Below, piece by piece: positions 10,897 to 61,067 of a stretch of DNA of 64,000 bases. The stretch is from the NCBI RefSeq assembly GCF_000969885.1, contig NZ_CP009501.1, forward strand, positions 2,432,908 to 2,496,907, in the 5' to 3' direction. The translations under genes and the position numbers were made by a program. The first letter of the stretch is position 1. Each line of letters starts with the position of its first letter. This DNA is from Methanosarcina thermophila TM-1. Its GTDB lineage: Archaea; Halobacteriota; Methanosarcinia; Methanosarcinales; Methanosarcinaceae. The notes beneath the pieces were generated by a model. That model searched no databases, was not told the DNA's origin, and worked only from the letters and a program-made list of their open reading frames with translations.

Positions 10897-11009
10897 ACTT
10901 CGGTCTCTTTTGTTGTCGTTTTTTACTCGCGTTGCGAGCAAATCTTAAATGCCTTTTTAATATATAAATGTTCCCGTCGAAATCTTTCGATTCTGGTAAA
11001 TGTTTCAGG

Positions 11010-11125
11010 TCCCGCCTCCCAGACTCGAACCGGGGACATCGCGGTGCCTGCGCGGAAATGTACGGGTAAATTTACCCGCACGAGCCGAACTACAGCCGCG
11101 CACTCTACCACTGAGTTAAGGCGGG
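11010..11125 (-). tRNA. tRNA-Tyr (anticodon GTA) with a 44-nt intron
   Basis: Acceptor CCCGCCT pairs with AGGCGGG and the discriminator is A73. C1-G72 plus A73 is the archaeal tyrosine identity set. The anticodon stem CGCGG/CCGCG encloses CTGTAG-A, giving anticodon GTA. A 44-nt intron (11046-11089) follows position 37, the canonical archaeal site. It contains an internal GCGGGTAAATTTACCCG hairpin. Its removal requires the splicing endonuclease and rejoining by RtcB, encoded at 39.6 kb. Confidence 0.93.
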
Positions 11126-53595: not shown

Positions 53596-56400
53596 ATGAG
53601 AGATGGTCCTGACCCGTATGGGGTAAGAGATACTATTGAAACAGCTGCCGGAAGCGCTAGGATCTACAGATTGGGCAAACTGGAAGAAAGGGGTTTTGAG
53701 GGAATTTCCCTGCTCCCTTACTCCATAAGGATACTGCTGGAATCCTTGCTCAGAAATGCGGACACTGAAAAGCGTTTAATAACCGCTGAGGATGTGGAGG
53801 CTCTTGCCCGCTGGAATCCTGAAAATGTAAGTGGTAAGGATATTCCGTTCATTCCGTCAAGGGTAATTATGCAGGACTTCACAGGCGTTCCGGCTGTAGT
53901 AGACCTGGCAGCACTCAGATCGGCAATGCAGCGTCTGGGAGGCGATCCTTCAAAAATAAACCCCGTTATTCCTGTTGATCTTGTCATTGACCATTCCATC
54001 CAGGTTGATTCTTATGGTACGGCTTATTCCCTTGAGGAAAATGAGAAAAAGGAGTTTGAGCGCAACACGGAACGTTATTCCTTCCTGCGCTGGGCACAGA
54101 AAGCCTTTGACAATTTCAGAGTTGTGCCTCCTGGAAGAGGAATCATCCATCAGGTCAATCTTGAATATCTGACCCCTCTTGTGCATCTTAAGGAGGAAAA
54201 TGGGGAGTTATCGGCATTTCCTGATACCCTTGTAGGGACAGACTCCCATACAACAATGATCAATGGGATTGGAGTACTCGGTTGGGGAGTCGGAGGCATA
54301 GAAGCAGAAGCTGTAATGCTCGGACAGCCTTATTATATGCCTGTACCCGAAGTAGTGGGCTTCAAACTCTACGGAAAGCCTGCACAGGGCGTCACTGCTA
54401 CCGATATTGTCCTGACAATCACAAAAATCTTGAGAAAAGAAGGAGTTGTCGGCAAATTCGTGGAATTTTACGGGCCAGGATTAAACTCACTGAGCCTTCC
54501 GGATAGGGCGACAATCTCCAATATGGCTCCGGAATATGGGGCAACCCTTGGATTTTTCCCGCCTGATGCCGAGACTCTCGACTACCTGAGAAGGACGGGC
54601 AGAAGTGAAGAACAGGTTGACCTTGTGAAAAAATATTTGGAAGCCCAGGACCTTCTTTACTCAGTTTACAAGCCAGAGCCTGTATACAGCCGCACCCTGG
54701 AACTTGATTTGAGCACTGTAAAGCCCTGCCTCGCAGGCCCGAAACGTCCACAGGATCAGCTCTTTTTTAACGAAGTACCTGAGAGCTTCCGTGAAATTAT
54801 GCGACAGACCTTCACCCGAAAGAAGGAATCAGGACTTGAACTCTCCAGAGACCCTGCTTACCAGCGCTGGATAGGAGAGGGAGGAACACCTGTAGGAGAA
54901 TCCGAGATTCCTGGCATAGAAGAGGAAATAGTAGAGTCCCCAGAGAATTCTTTCAGGGTAACACATGGTTCTGTAGTAATCGCAGCAATTACTTCCTGTA
55001 CCAATACCTCAAACCCTTCAGTTCTGATAGGAGCAGGGCTGCTCGCAAAAAAGGCTGTCGAAAGGGGACTGCGCGTAAAGCCTTTTGTAAAAACAAGCCT
55101 TTCCCCTGGCTCAAGAGTGGCTACGGAATATCTAAGAGCTGCATGCCTTTTGCCCTATCTTGAAGCCCTTGGTTTCCATCTGGTCGGTTACGGCTGTACA
55201 ACCTGTATAGGAAACAGCGGACCTTTACCTGAAAGCGTTGCTAGAGAAATTCAGGAAAATGATCTTACTGTTGCAGCCGTACTCAGTGGTAACCGAAACT
55301 TCGAAGGGCGGATTAATCCTCTTATAAGAGCGAACTACCTGGCATCTCCGCCTCTTGTTGTCGCTTATGCAATTGCAGGTACTGTGAATATCAACCTTGA
55401 GACTGATCCCCTTGCTTATGATCCCAATGGGCGTCCTGTTTATCTCAGGGATATCTGGCCTTCAGAGGAGGAGATCAGAGAGGTTGAAAAGAACAGTATC
55501 AAACCTTCAATGTTCGAAAAGGAGTATTCTGGTGTTCTGGAAGGTCCAAAGCTCTGGAGAGAACTGGAAGTTCCATCAGGGACCCTTTATGAATGGAATC
55601 CGATGTCCACATATATTCAGGAGCCTCCCTATTTTGTGGATTTCCCGCTTACTTCGCCTTCGCCAGAAGATATAAAGAACGCAAGGGTCCTCGCTCTTTT
55701 CGGAGACAGCATTACCACGGATCATATCTCACCTGCAGGAGACATTCCTGCAGATAGCCCAGCAGGCAGATACCTGATCTCCTGGGGTGTGAGCCCTGAA
55801 GATTTCAATTCCTATGGGTCTCGCAGAGGTAATCACGAGGTTATGATGCGCGGAACCTTTGGGAATATCCGGCTCAGGAATAAGCTCGTGGACAGGGAAG
55901 GAGGCTGGACTTTATATCATCCAAGGAAAGAGGACTTCCCGGAGGAAGCTTGCGGAGGAATCCCTATTTTTGAAGCAGCTATGCTTTATGCAGAAAATAA
56001 TATTCCTCTGATAGTTATTGCAGGAAAGGAATATGGAACAGGCAGTTCCAGAGACTGGGCAGCCAAAGGTACATTCCTGCTCGGGGTAAAAGCCGTTATT
56101 GCCGAATCTTTTGAGCGTATTCACAGAAGCAACCTTGTAGGCATGGGAGTCCTTCCGCTGCAGTTTAAAGAGGGCGAGAATGCCGAGACTCTGGGACTCA
56201 CAGGAAAGGAGAGCTATGATATCCTGGGCATTGAGTATCTGGAGCCTCACGGAGAGCTTACAATAAGGGCAAAAGACGAAAATGGACTAGAGACTCTGTT
56301 CCAGGTAATTGTGAGGCTGGATTCGGCTGTGGAGGTAGAATACTACAGGAACGGCGGGATTTTGCATAAGTTCCTGCGGGATTCGCTGAAGAAAAAATAA
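53596..56400 (+). CDS. acnA: Aconitate hydratase (AcnA-type)
   Basis: A 934-residue aconitase. It isomerises citrate to isocitrate via cis-aconitate. The 4Fe-4S Cys residues are visible: one at about 468 in TSCTNTSNPS and two at about 534 and 537 in GCTTCIGNSG. The active site GTDSHTTMINGIGVLGWGVGG and the domain-4 swivel GDSITTDHISPAG and YGTGSSRDWAAKG are intact. Together with the citrate synthase 400 nt on, it forms the oxidative start of the partial TCA route to 2-oxoglutarate. Confidence 0.96.
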   Translation: MRDGPDPYGVRDTIETAAGSARIYRLGKLEERGFEGISLLPYSIRILLESLLRNADTEKRLITAEDVEALARWNPENVSGKDIPFIPSRVIMQDFTGVPAVVDLAALRSAMQRLGGDPSKINPVIPVDLVIDHSIQVDSYGTAYSLEENEKKEFERNTERYSFLRWAQKAFDNFRVVPPGRGIIHQVNLEYLTPLVHLKEENGELSAFPDTLVGTDSHTTMINGIGVLGWGVGGIEAEAVMLGQPYYMPVPEVVGFKLYGKPAQGVTATDIVLTITKILRKEGVVGKFVEFYGPGLNSLSLPDRATISNMAPEYGATLGFFPPDAETLDYLRRTGRSEEQVDLVKKYLEAQDLLYSVYKPEPVYSRTLELDLSTVKPCLAGPKRPQDQLFFNEVPESFREIMRQTFTRKKESGLELSRDPAYQRWIGEGGTPVGESEIPGIEEEIVESPENSFRVTHGSVVIAAITSCTNTSNPSVLIGAGLLAKKAVERGLRVKPFVKTSLSPGSRVATEYLRAACLLPYLEALGFHLVGYGCTTCIGNSGPLPESVAREIQENDLTVAAVLSGNRNFEGRINPLIRANYLASPPLVVAYAIAGTVNINLETDPLAYDPNGRPVYLRDIWPSEEEIREVEKNSIKPSMFEKEYSGVLEGPKLWRELEVPSGTLYEWNPMSTYIQEPPYFVDFPLTSPSPEDIKNARVLALFGDSITTDHISPAGDIPADSPAGRYLISWGVSPEDFNSYGSRRGNHEVMMRGTFGNIRLRNKLVDREGGWTLYHPRKEDFPEEACGGIPIFEAAMLYAENNIPLIVIAGKEYGTGSSRDWAAKGTFLLGVKAVIAESFERIHRSNLVGMGVLPLQFKEGENAETLGLTGKESYDILGIEYLEPHGELTIRAKDENGLETLFQVIVRLDSAVEVEYYRNGGILHKFLRDSLKKK

Positions 56401-56807
56401 TACGCTGCAATACTAAAATTACACATGGAAAACTTTTTAAAAGGTTTCACAAGCTTTATACAAAGCTTTTTATTTTTTTGAAACCTTTTTTAGTAATAGG
56501 AAACAAAATTATTTTAATCATCTTACTTGTTTTGAGAAAGACAGTGTTCTGAAAATAATAGTTTTAAACTTAATATAACTACGAAATTTAGAGCAGCAGC
56601 TTATTTATGATGGAAAATAATTATAAAGCTCTTGAGATACAATTTCAACAAATTTAATATACTTATTCGATATAATAGGAATGCAGTGTCACCCTATTTT
56701 TGGGTCTTATAAGGCCCTTCGTGTTAGACTCTTCCACGTATAAGCAGAGGATTCCCCAAACTTCAAAGTTTTTTGAAAATCCTCTAGGCATAACTGTGAG
56801 GTAGAAA
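56401..56807. other. Gap between aconitase and citrate synthase
   Basis: 407 bases with no supportable gene. An AAAAGGTTTC...GAAACCTTTT hairpin at 56437-56492 with a T-rich loop follows aconitase and may end its transcript. The rest is AT-rich and probably holds the citrate synthase promoter. Confidence 0.55.
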
Positions 56808-57875
56808 ATGAGTAAAAATATAAGTTTCATTGACGGGTTGGAGGGCATTCTGAAGTACAGGGAGATAGACATTAACCAGCTGGTTGAGCTTCCTTATGAT
56901 GCAGTTTCCTATCTGCTTATCATGGGAGAACTCCCTGGAGATCAGGAACTTGCCGATTATTCAGCCCGCCTGCGTGGGGAACGTGAGATCAACAGGGAGG
57001 CGATTGATGTTATCCGTATGTGCAATTTCAACATTGACTCTATGGAAGCGCTGCGTACAATCGTTTCTTTCATATCACAGTTCGATCCGGATATTAACGA
57101 CAACTCCCCCGAAGGAAATATGAGAAAAGCCATACGGTTAATTGCCAAGATCCCAACCATAGTCGCTGCTTATCATAGAATAGCAAATGGGAAAGAACCG
57201 GTGCCTCCTGATCCCTCTCTCTCCCATGGAGCTAACTTCCTCTACATGATAAGAGGAAGCAAACCAAGTGATTTGGAGGCTGAGGTCATGGAAAAAGACT
57301 TTATCCTCAGCGCCGAACACGAACTAAACGCATCTACTTTTTCTTCAAGAGTTACTGCCTCCACCCTTTCTGACCTCTATTCTGCTGTTGTTTCTGGACT
57401 CTGTACCCTTAAAGGCCCTCTCCATGGAGGGGCAAGGGCAGAAGTTATGGCTATGATTGATGAGATCAGTTCCCCGGAAGACGCAGAAAAATACGTTCTT
57501 GAGAAACTTGCAAAGAAAGAAAAGATCATGGGTTTCGGGCACCGCGTATATAAGACCTATGATCCAAGAGGCGTAGTGTTCAAACAGCTCTCCAGGCAAC
57601 TTGCAGAGGCAAAAGGGAATATGTACTGGTATGAAATTGCCGAAGCAACAGAAAGAACAGTCATTCGCGAGCTTGTAGAAAAAAAAGGCAAGCCAATCTA
57701 CCCCAATGTCGATTTTTATTCGGGAGTTATTTATAAGTATCTGGATATTCCCCCCAAACTTGCAACATCTATATTCGCAATCGGCAGGGTCTCAGGCTGG
57801 ATAGCTCATTGCTTTGACCAATATGAGAAGAAAAAGATCATAAGGCCCAGAGCCTTCATGCTTGATGAATGTTGA
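56808..57875 (+). CDS. Citrate synthase
   Basis: A 355-residue citrate synthase that makes citrate from oxaloacetate and acetyl-CoA. Catalytic residues are His171, His206 (in GPLHGG) and Asp302 (in NVDFYSG); His245 (GFGHRVYK) binds oxaloacetate. Compared with other archaeal enzymes the N-terminus is about 16 residues short. A TAG lies six nt before the ATG, and GAGGT precedes it, so the start is secure. It supplies the aconitase upstream. It is followed by palindromic repeat copy C. Confidence 0.94.
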   Translation: MSKNISFIDGLEGILKYREIDINQLVELPYDAVSYLLIMGELPGDQELADYSARLRGEREINREAIDVIRMCNFNIDSMEALRTIVSFISQFDPDINDNSPEGNMRKAIRLIAKIPTIVAAYHRIANGKEPVPPDPSLSHGANFLYMIRGSKPSDLEAEVMEKDFILSAEHELNASTFSSRVTASTLSDLYSAVVSGLCTLKGPLHGGARAEVMAMIDEISSPEDAEKYVLEKLAKKEKIMGFGHRVYKTYDPRGVVFKQLSRQLAEAKGNMYWYEIAEATERTVIRELVEKKGKPIYPNVDFYSGVIYKYLDIPPKLATSIFAIGRVSGWIAHCFDQYEKKKIIRPRAFMLDEC

Positions 57876-57926
57876 GATAATCTTTTGGTCAAGTGAAATC
57901 GTTCCCTAAACCATTGTACTGCGACC

Positions 57927-58065
57927 GTTGAGCCGGTAGATTCCCAAATGTTGCGTCACTTGACCACGCCGTCACGCCGTTTTCAAAAAACCTTTTTTCA
58001 AAAGGTTTTTGATCAAACTTTTTCCTAAAAAGTTTGCGCTCAAGCAGTTTTTTGAAAAGGCTTGT
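57927..58065 (-). repeat. Dispersed palindromic repeat, copy C, downstream of citrate synthase
   Basis: 57927-57972 is the reverse complement of the GC-rich core of copy B (38 of 46). From 57991 to 58065, palindromic AAAAGG/CCTTTT and TTTTTGATCAAAC stretches match copy A. It therefore joins the cores of A and B and is the longest of the three. Confidence 0.8.
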
Positions 58066-58138
58066 GGGCAAGCAATTTGTTAAATGGTTGTCAGACAAAC
58101 TTTTTATTATCTGACAGCTTTTTGATATCCAGATACCC

Positions 58139-59413
58139 ATGAGTTTTAGAGCTTTTATTGACCAGTTAAAGGAAAATGGAAAACTGGTAGAGATTTCTCA
58201 GCCCGTTTCTCCGAGGTTTGAAGCTTCAAGAATCGCAAAAACCACAAAAGCCCCGGTTCTTTTCCATGATATCTCGGGTTCGAAGGTCATTATGAACCTG
58301 CTTGGATCAAGGGAAGAACTGGCTTCAATGCTAGGAGTTCCTAAAGAAGAAATCATAAAGAGGCTTTCCGAAGTTTCTCCAGAAGGTGAGGTGAGGCTGG
58401 TTTCAGAATCTCCAACCCTTGAGGTTATAGAAGATGAGGTTGACTTGACAAAACTTCCTATCCTTACACATTTTGAAAAAGACGGAGCCCCTTATATAAC
58501 CGCGGGGATTGTAGTTTCCGAGTACGAAGGTACAATTAATGCTTCCATTCACCGCCTTATGCTTGTAGGAAAAGATAAGCTCGCAGCCCGACTGGTTCCT
58601 CCGAGACATACTTATCTACTGTATAAAAAAGCTGCTGAAAAAAGAGAACCTTTACCTGTTGCAATTGTGCTTGGCTGCGACCCTATTATTATTTACGCGA
58701 CCTCAACAAGAGTTCCCGTTGGAAAAGAATTCGAATACGCAGCCGCCCTGAGAGGAGCTCCTGTGGAGCTTTTTGAGTGCTCAAACGGAGTAAAAGTTCC
58801 TCATTCGGAAATCGTGCTTGAGGGTTACATTGATCCAGTGGAAAAGGTTGATGAGGGACCTTTTGTAGACATTACGGGAACCTACGACGTGGTGAGAAAA
58901 GAGCCTGTTATCCATATAACCCGAATTATCCATAGAAAAGACCCGATATACCATGGAATTCTGCCAGCAGGCCCTGAACATCTCCTGATGATGGGGGTGC
59001 CTTATGAGCCAAGAATCTACAGAGCTGTCGGAGAGGTCACTACCGTAAGAAACGTGGTGTTGACAGAAGGAGGATGCTGCTATCTTCATGCAGTCGTTCA
59101 GATCGAGAAGCAGACTGAAGGAGATGGGAAAAATGCAATTATGGCAGCCTTTGCAGCTCACACCAGCCTTAAACATGTGGTAGTTGTGGACGAAGATATA
59201 AATATTTTCGACCCAAATGATGTTGAGTTTGCAATTGCTACGAGAGTCAAAGGGGATATGGATATTCTTATTATTCCTAATGTCCGGGGTAGTTCTCTGG
59301 ACCCGCGAGGAGCTCCTGACGGAACGACCACAAAAGTAGGGATTGATGCAACAAAGGTTCTTACCGAAAAAGAAAATTTTGAAAGGGCGGTAATCCCTGA
59401 AGTTAACGAGTGA
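58139..59413 (+). CDS. UbiD-like decarboxylase, probable anhydromevalonate phosphate decarboxylase
   Basis: A 424-residue UbiD-family enzyme, which uses prenylated FMN. Its family motifs are visible: TAGIVVSEYEGTINASIHRL, LVPPRHTYLLYKKA, VDEGPFVDITGTYD and DEDINIFDPNDVEFAIATR. Immediately downstream lie both subunits of an aconitase-X enzyme. That is the pair described for the archaeal mevalonate route, where phosphomevalonate is dehydrated and then decarboxylated to isopentenyl phosphate. This enzyme would be the decarboxylase. A UbiX-type flavin prenyltransferase is not in the window. Confidence 0.88.
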   Translation: MSFRAFIDQLKENGKLVEISQPVSPRFEASRIAKTTKAPVLFHDISGSKVIMNLLGSREELASMLGVPKEEIIKRLSEVSPEGEVRLVSESPTLEVIEDEVDLTKLPILTHFEKDGAPYITAGIVVSEYEGTINASIHRLMLVGKDKLAARLVPPRHTYLLYKKAAEKREPLPVAIVLGCDPIIIYATSTRVPVGKEFEYAAALRGAPVELFECSNGVKVPHSEIVLEGYIDPVEKVDEGPFVDITGTYDVVRKEPVIHITRIIHRKDPIYHGILPAGPEHLLMMGVPYEPRIYRAVGEVTTVRNVVLTEGGCCYLHAVVQIEKQTEGDGKNAIMAAFAAHTSLKHVVVVDEDINIFDPNDVEFAIATRVKGDMDILIIPNVRGSSLDPRGAPDGTTTKVGIDATKVLTEKENFERAVIPEVNE

Positions 59414-59419
59414 ATCTCA

Positions 59420-60628
59420 ATGTATCTTACAAAAGAAGAAGAACAGATCCTGAATGGTGAAGCAGGGGAGACTCTAAGGCAGGCTATCGGGATTCTGGTG
59501 GCTCTTGGAGATATTTATGGTGCAGACCGTCTCATACCAATCAAAAGCGCACAGATTGCAGGAGTTTCTTATAAAACTATAGGCGACGCAGGTCTTGAAT
59601 GGATTTCAGACCTCCAGGGTAGGGTTAAGGTTCCTGCGATCCTTAACCCTGCAGGGATGGATCTTGAAGACTGGGAAAGGCTAAGGATCTCCCCCGAGTT
59701 TGCAGAAAAACAAAAACTGATTATCCAGACATATGCAAAACTGGGTATTCGCTGCGAATGTACATGCACGCCTTATACCCTTGAGGGCTTTGACACTAGT
59801 TACGGCGATCATCTGGCATGGAGTGAGTCGTCAGCTGTTTCTTATGCAAATTCCGTGCTTGGAGCCAGGACAAACCGTGAAGGAGGACCATCAGCCCTTT
59901 CGGCGGCGCTTCTAGGGAAAACTGCAAATTATGGGCTCCATCTGGACGAAAACCGTGTGCCTGAAATCTCAATTCATGTAGAATTCCCACTTAAAGGATC
60001 GGATTATGGGGCACTCGGATATATAGTCGGTAAACTTGCAGGAAGCAAAGTACCCGTTTTTCATCTCAAAACTACCCCTGACGTAGATGAATTGAAAGCG
60101 CTTGGAGCTGCAATGGCAGCTTCAGGGGCAGTTGCTCTTTACCACGTGGAAGGGGTCACGCCCGAGATTCGCAGGCTGAATTTTGAAGATCCTGAGGAAA
60201 AGATAACTATTGAGAGAAAACAGCTTGATGAGGTTTATGAGACCCTGAATAAAGCTACCAGAGAGCCCGAATTAATAACTATAGGATGCCCTCACTGCTC
60301 GGCAACTGAACTCGAAAAGATAGCCAAACTCCTGAAAGGAAAAACTGTTTCGAAAGAACTCTGGATCTTTACTTCAAGGGAACTTGTAAAACGCTATCCT
60401 GAGTATATAAAGACTATTGAAAAAAGTGGAGCTAAAGTCGTCTGTGATACCTGTATGGTAGTCTCTCCTGCTACCAATCGATATTCCTGTGTTATGGTAA
60501 ACTCAGGAAAAGCTCTTGCTTACGTGCCAGGGATGTGCGGGGCTGAAGCCGTATATGGAAATATGGAGATGTGTATTGAAGAGGCAGTGGGCGGCAACAC
60601 AGCAAAGAAAGAAGGTGGTTCCCATTAA
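59420..60628 (+). CDS. Aconitase X large subunit, probable phosphomevalonate dehydratase large subunit
   Basis: A 402-residue aconitase-X catalytic subunit (DUF521-type). It probably dehydrates (R)-5-phosphomevalonate to trans-anhydromevalonate 5-phosphate. Iron-sulfur-type Cys residues lie in [23 protein letters not shown] and [14 protein letters not shown]. It follows the UbiD homologue by 6 nt and overlaps the small subunit by 14 nt. This tight arrangement supports one enzyme system. Confidence 0.9.
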
Positions 60629-61067
60629 ACTTAAAGGTAGGGCAATTTCCAGAGGATGTGCAAAGGGGGAAGTACTGCTTTCCAGAGACCCTATTTCCTT
60701 CCTTGGAAGTATAGATCCGAAAACCGGGGTCGTAGTTGAGGAAAATCACGCCCTTGAAGGAAAATCAATTCAGGGTAAGGTTCTCGTTTTTCCTCACGGA
60801 AAAGGCTCTACAGTCGGCTCGTATGTTATGTATCAACTGAAAAAAAACGGAACTGCGCCTGCAGCAATAATAAATCTGGAAACTGAACCTATAGTTGCAG
60901 TTGGAGCCATTATTTCCGAAATCCCGCTTGTTGATATGCTCGAAAGAAACCCTTACGAAGTTTTAAATAACGGAGACCTTGTTCTGGTTAACGGAAACGG
61001 AGGATATATTGAACTTCTCAAATCGGAAACTGGTAAAACTGAAATAAATAAGACTGAAAACATGTAA
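60615..61067 (+). CDS. Aconitase X small subunit (swivel), probable phosphomevalonate dehydratase small subunit
   Basis: A 150-residue swivel domain (DUF126-type): [37 protein letters not shown] and [13 protein letters not shown] take the GTG at 60615 as the start, since no in-frame ATG fits; a longer frame from 60516 runs wholly inside the large-subunit gene and is not family-like. The gene overlaps the large subunit by 14 nt. The C-terminal tail ([10 protein letters not shown]) is weakly conserved. Confidence 0.85.

Follow-up and report, generated by a model that had tools for sequence, protein, structure and literature searches.

A predicted operon for the lower branch of the archaeal mevalonate pathway in Methanosarcina thermophila TM-1

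Introduction

In Methanosarcina thermophila TM-1, a gene for a UbiD-family decarboxylase is followed directly by genes for the large and swivel subunits of an aconitase X (AcnX). What do these three neighbors do together? We consider it very probable (roughly 0.97) that they make up the lower branch of the archaeal, or anhydromevalonate, mevalonate pathway. The evidence comprises gene content, gene order, conserved residues, phylogeny and the genome-wide absence of alternatives; the substrates, the cluster type and the cofactor are carried over from characterized homologs. Together, the large and swivel subunits of AcnX would make up a [4Fe-4S] dehydratase, which would convert mevalonate 5-phosphate to trans-anhydromevalonate 5-phosphate by loss of water. 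The UbiD homolog, served by prenylated FMN (prFMN) made by UbiX, would decarboxylate this product to isopentenyl phosphate, from which isopentenyl phosphate kinase (IPK) and type 2 isomerase (IDI2) would then produce the IPP and DMAPP that go into membrane lipids.

This route was worked out in Aeropyrum pernix (Hayakawa et al. 2018, as cited in PMC10040528), and it was reconstituted in E. coli with Methanosarcina mazei genes (Yoshida et al. 2020, as cited in PMC10040528 and PMC9385802). It is given as the Methanosarcina pathway in PMC11816158, and passages of PMC11052028 present AcnX with anhydromevalonate phosphate decarboxylase (AMPD) as the dominant archaeal type. Since the pathway has been published for the same genus, including the M. 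mazei reconstitution, the finding is already known and the locus is an ordinary member of that system. The preliminary description had called the functional assignment easy to miss. This is still true of the databases, which say "UbiD family decarboxylase" and "DUF126 protein"; as a claim to novelty it amounts to little, given publication in 2018 and 2020. For this genome, the assignment means that the isoprenoid route would be the ATP-saving, oxygen-sensitive archaeal one, and the correct gene names follow.

Gene order and spacing

The window is the whole 64-kb stretch of DNA analyzed, positions 2432908-2496907 of a single-contig genome of 3,127,379 bases that is 99.95% complete. It holds the three open reading frames in tandem on the plus strand, in the order UbiD, AcnX large subunit, AcnX swivel subunit, with a palindrome before them:

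58091..58114, plus strand: palindrome TCAGA...TCTGA around a TATA-like box, a probable promoter and possible operator (alignment of 15 loci)
58139..59413, plus strand: UbiD-family decarboxylase, predicted AMPD, 424 aa (Pfam, TIGR00148, tree, residues)
59420..60628, plus strand: aconitase X type IIb large subunit, predicted phosphomevalonate dehydratase large subunit, 402 aa (Pfam, 7CNR match, residues)
60615..61067, plus strand: aconitase X swivel (small) subunit with a GTG start, 150 aa (Pfam, NF003046, 7CNR chain B, A. fulgidus AF0055)

The UbiD stop and the start of the AcnX large subunit are 6 nt apart, and the swivel frame begins inside the large-subunit gene, with an overlap of exactly 14 nt; the ORF coordinates bear out to the base the spacing that the preliminary description had given. 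For the swivel subunit, the ORF tool chose a TTG start at 60516, which gives a longer frame, but homology runs only from the GTG at 60615 on.

We compared the gene order with that of 16 relatives, namely 14 genomes of the genus or near it and two from other genera of the family. All 16 keep the order seen in the window, and the 14-nt overlap is present in most of the genus genomes compared. Only the window and its nearest relative have 6 nt between UbiD and AcnX; in the remaining 13 of 15 loci, the gap measures 10-335 nt. A gap that ranges from 6 to 335 nt among species is not a sign of tight coupling, and we rejected that interpretation of the 6 nt. In family f4 of the class, UbiD and AcnX are distant from each other (about 820 kb in G053, for example); their adjacency is therefore lineage-specific. 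From the spacing and a shared upstream promoter-like block, we infer that the trio is probably co-transcribed.

The usual Methanosarcina context consists of the aconitase AcnA and citrate synthase 5' of the trio and, in most cases, an M50 protease and a TIGR04013 B12-binding radical SAM protein 3' of it. G001 keeps the downstream pair and G016 keeps the protease, and in neither genome does the upstream pair adjoin the trio. We rejected citrate synthase and aconitase as part of the trio unit: they lie 263 nt away, two other genera of the family lack them next to the trio, and three Methanosarcina-group genomes have them displaced. The two genes are adjacent to each other in the window (53596-57875) and occur together in nearly all Methanosarcina genomes compared, not always beside the trio. 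Elsewhere in the window, a tRNA-Tyr (GTA) gene at 11008-11125 on the minus strand has a 33-nt intron at position 37; it was detected by Rfam, and by ARAGORN only with introns allowed.

The upstream palindrome

A 24-nt palindrome, consensus TCAGATAATCTTTTTATCATCTGA, lies 25-48 nt upstream of the UbiD start. It is kept in all 15 Methanosarcina-group loci aligned, and the sequence farther upstream is not conserved. With up to 3 mismatches allowed, it occurs once in the genome, and neither the mevalonate kinase (MVK)-IPK region nor the UbiX region has a copy. We therefore rejected it, at that tolerance, as the mark of a wider regulon. Given its conservation in every Methanosarcina-group genome aligned and its single occurrence, the palindrome may be the operator of a putative regulator that tunes the isoprenoid branch, which would place the trio under dedicated control; we regard this as rather doubtful. 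A conserved core promoter with no regulator would account for it just as well.

Between citrate synthase and UbiD, the intergenic stretch 57876-58138 is rich in inverted repeats and folds better than 200 of 200 shuffled sequences (z -4.2). Inverted repeats of a similar kind precede UbiD in several further Methanosarcina.

The UbiD homolog

The UbiD homolog matches the Pfam UbiD N-terminal, middle and C-terminal domains far above cut-off (219 bits for the middle domain) and TIGR00148 with 472 bits. Matches to such general UbiD models, and the shared superfamily, would also suit a decarboxylase that works on an aromatic acid in a menaquinone, ubiquinone or phenol-type route, with the AcnX genes as mere neighbors. 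However, the equivalog cut-offs for the two quinone routes are missed by wide margins, at 187.4 of 495.9 bits for menaquinone and 184.5 of 788 bits for ubiquinone. A search of the complete genome found this UbiD and no other, the gene order is conserved across the family, and the UbiD clade tracks AcnX carriage. We built a tree of 54 UbiDs, of which 46 come from loci or genomes associated with AcnX, seven are further archaeal UbiDs and one is that of E. coli. All 46 AcnX-associated sequences, including that of the window, fall on one side of a branch with 100/100 support, with E. coli UbiD and the seven archaeal UbiDs opposite. Taken together, this makes an aromatic-acid substrate very unlikely.

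The predicted AMPD has N134, R139, H157, E228, E239 and D244 at its prFMN site. We take these positions to match sites of fungal Fdc1 that include N168, R173, H191, E233, E277 and E282. The N, R, E and D at the positions of Fdc1 N168, R173, E277 and E282 are nearly or fully invariant in the archaeal set. The prFMN/metal-site positions of H191 and E233 vary among archaeal homologs outside the methanogens, and both residues are kept in the UbiD of the window.

The AcnX subunits

Both AcnX subunits score far above the Pfam cut-offs, with 530 bits for the large subunit (AcnX) and 127 bits for the swivel subunit (AcnX_swivel_put). The swivel subunit also matches A. fulgidus AF0055 and, with 204 bits, NF003046, a model whose name is still DUF126. 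This is the one AcnX found when the complete genome was searched. The large subunit (domains 1-3) and the swivel (domain 4) are encoded as tandem genes, which is the layout that defines AcnX type IIb. Based on homology to solved relatives, the folds of the trio proteins can be considered settled.

In A. pernix phosphomevalonate dehydratase (PMDh), the cluster is held by Cys122, Cys297 and Cys356, for which the mutants C122A, C297A and C356A were made, and archaeal enzymes are without the third cysteine of type I (PMC10040528). The AcnX of the window has cluster cysteines Cys116, Cys290 and Cys345; V347 occupies site C, so that the third type I cysteine is absent. Cys116, Cys290, Cys345 and Glu136 are invariant in 99 of 99 archaeal AcnX sequences compared, and nearly all of the archaeal AcnX homologs compared have V in place of Cys at site C. 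The window protein thus shares the cluster cysteine set and the conserved glutamate with the A. pernix PMDh/AMPD system (Komeyama et al. 2023, PMC10040528), although that lineage is distant and the likeness was mapped through a motif and an alignment with the T. kodakarensis protein. Both subunits match T. kodakarensis AcnX (PDB 7CNR, 7CNS) over nearly their full length, with 346 bits for the large subunit and 134 bits for the swivel against 7CNR chain B, and its cluster cysteines align with the three of the window. The T. kodakarensis protein differs in that its crystal contains a [3Fe-4S] cluster and no activity was demonstrated for it (PMC10040528). Compared with the PMDh and AMPD of M. mazei, we see the same AcnX pair, UbiD homolog and UbiX, in an order common to all Methanosarcina-group genomes compared; no functional difference is visible, and the UbiD-AcnX spacing is what varies between species.

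A role as hydroxyproline dehydratase, as in bacterial AcnX enzymes, can practically be dismissed: the sole AcnX model that matches in NCBIfam bears that name, but the score is 282.6 of 700 bits, far under the cut-off, the subunits are separate as in type IIb, site C has V and not Cys, and the top solved match is the archaeal 7CNR.

The rest of the pathway in the genome

The anhydromevalonate route would need partners outside the window. Four genes match the flavoprotein family: UbiX, a CoaBC-like fusion (called from length and sequence alone), AfpA and dihydromethanopterin reductase. UbiX lies at 1725100 (1.725 Mb; L020, 6020-6652) and matches TIGR00421 with 251.7 bits. IPK (221 bits) and IDI2 (430 bits) stand directly after MVK at 2.58 Mb, and HMG-CoA reductase is present with 521 bits. 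The five GHMP kinases of the genome are MVK, an archaeal shikimate kinase, two beta-RFAP synthases and a pantoate kinase, the last a best match that stays under the curated cut-off; no phosphomevalonate kinase and no decarboxylase of the mevalonate type is among them. Genome-wide, the diphosphomevalonate decarboxylase (DMD) model gave weak partial matches to GHMP genes and none over cut-off, and the haloarchaeal phosphomevalonate decarboxylase (MvaD) is absent from the genome. As predicted from these matches, the gene set corresponds to the archaeal pathway and to none of the other known variants of the mevalonate route.

The preliminary description had proposed that the trio dehydrates phosphomevalonate and decarboxylates the product to isopentenyl phosphate. 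The single UbiD and AcnX, the UbiX gene, the MVK-IPK-IDI2 cluster, the cysteines and the clade all support this as the probable function. Its expectations also agree with what we found: the UbiD groups with those of AcnX-bearing archaea and misses the quinone cut-offs, UbiX is in the genome, and neither a GHMP-type phosphomevalonate kinase nor a diphospho- or phosphomevalonate decarboxylase is encoded there.

Distribution across the phylum

In a survey of 294 genomes of the phylum, AcnX came up over cut-off in 219 and UbiD was present in 240, and 80 genomes have the haloarchaeal phosphomevalonate decarboxylase. UbiD accompanies AcnX in 218 of the 219 AcnX genomes, the exception (G229) being a draft. 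Nearly every genome has either AcnX or the haloarchaeal decarboxylase: six have both, and a single one, the contaminated assembly G168, has neither. Such near-perfect exclusion cleanly confirms the published pathway at the genomic level.

One genome of family f6 (G071, C21:28607-29795; L060, L063) has a second, divergent AcnX with 34% identity to the window protein. It is apparently split by a stop or a frame change and has its own swivel gene.

Haloarchaea with both routes

The six exceptional genomes, judged to be haloarchaeal by their haloarchaeal decarboxylase content, carry the trio in the order UbiD, AcnX large subunit, AcnX swivel subunit. The list covers haloarchaeal trio loci of these genomes and of relatives taken together:

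Haloarchaeal trio loci: L107, L108, L109, L110; G205, G014, G040, G261 (L087-L090)

The wider neighborhood could be clearly read in two of them (G205 and G014), and in both UbiX follows the trio as a fourth gene. The same operon, which is of a type that DPANN archaea have as well, is found in the relatives Halorhabdus amylolytica, Halorhabdus salina, Halapricum hydrolyticum and a Halodesulfurarchaeum MAG, whose contig stops before the UbiX position. In the AcnX tree, the haloarchaeal proteins group at 100/100 with DPANN MAGs (Aenigmatarchaeota, Diapherotrites) rather than with methanogens from the same phylum as the haloarchaea, the DPANN labels resting on MAGs in which binning could blur them. 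This placement suggests horizontal transfer of a putative self-contained UbiD-AcnX-UbiX cassette involving haloarchaea and DPANN archaea.

Several of these haloarchaeal genera are known to grow anaerobically or by fermentation, conditions that would suit a dehydratase sensitive to oxygen. Both routes have been described on one contig in Hodarchaeales in passages of PMC11052028, which make no mention of haloarchaea with both. Haloarchaea that have both could raise the question of whether an oxygen-sensitive or an oxygen-tolerant route is used according to condition in one cell. In G006 and G040 (around L057/L058), about 1 kb separates AcnX from a gene for phosphomevalonate decarboxylase, so that the two routes stand side by side; these two genomes also hold a second, more distant decarboxylase homolog.
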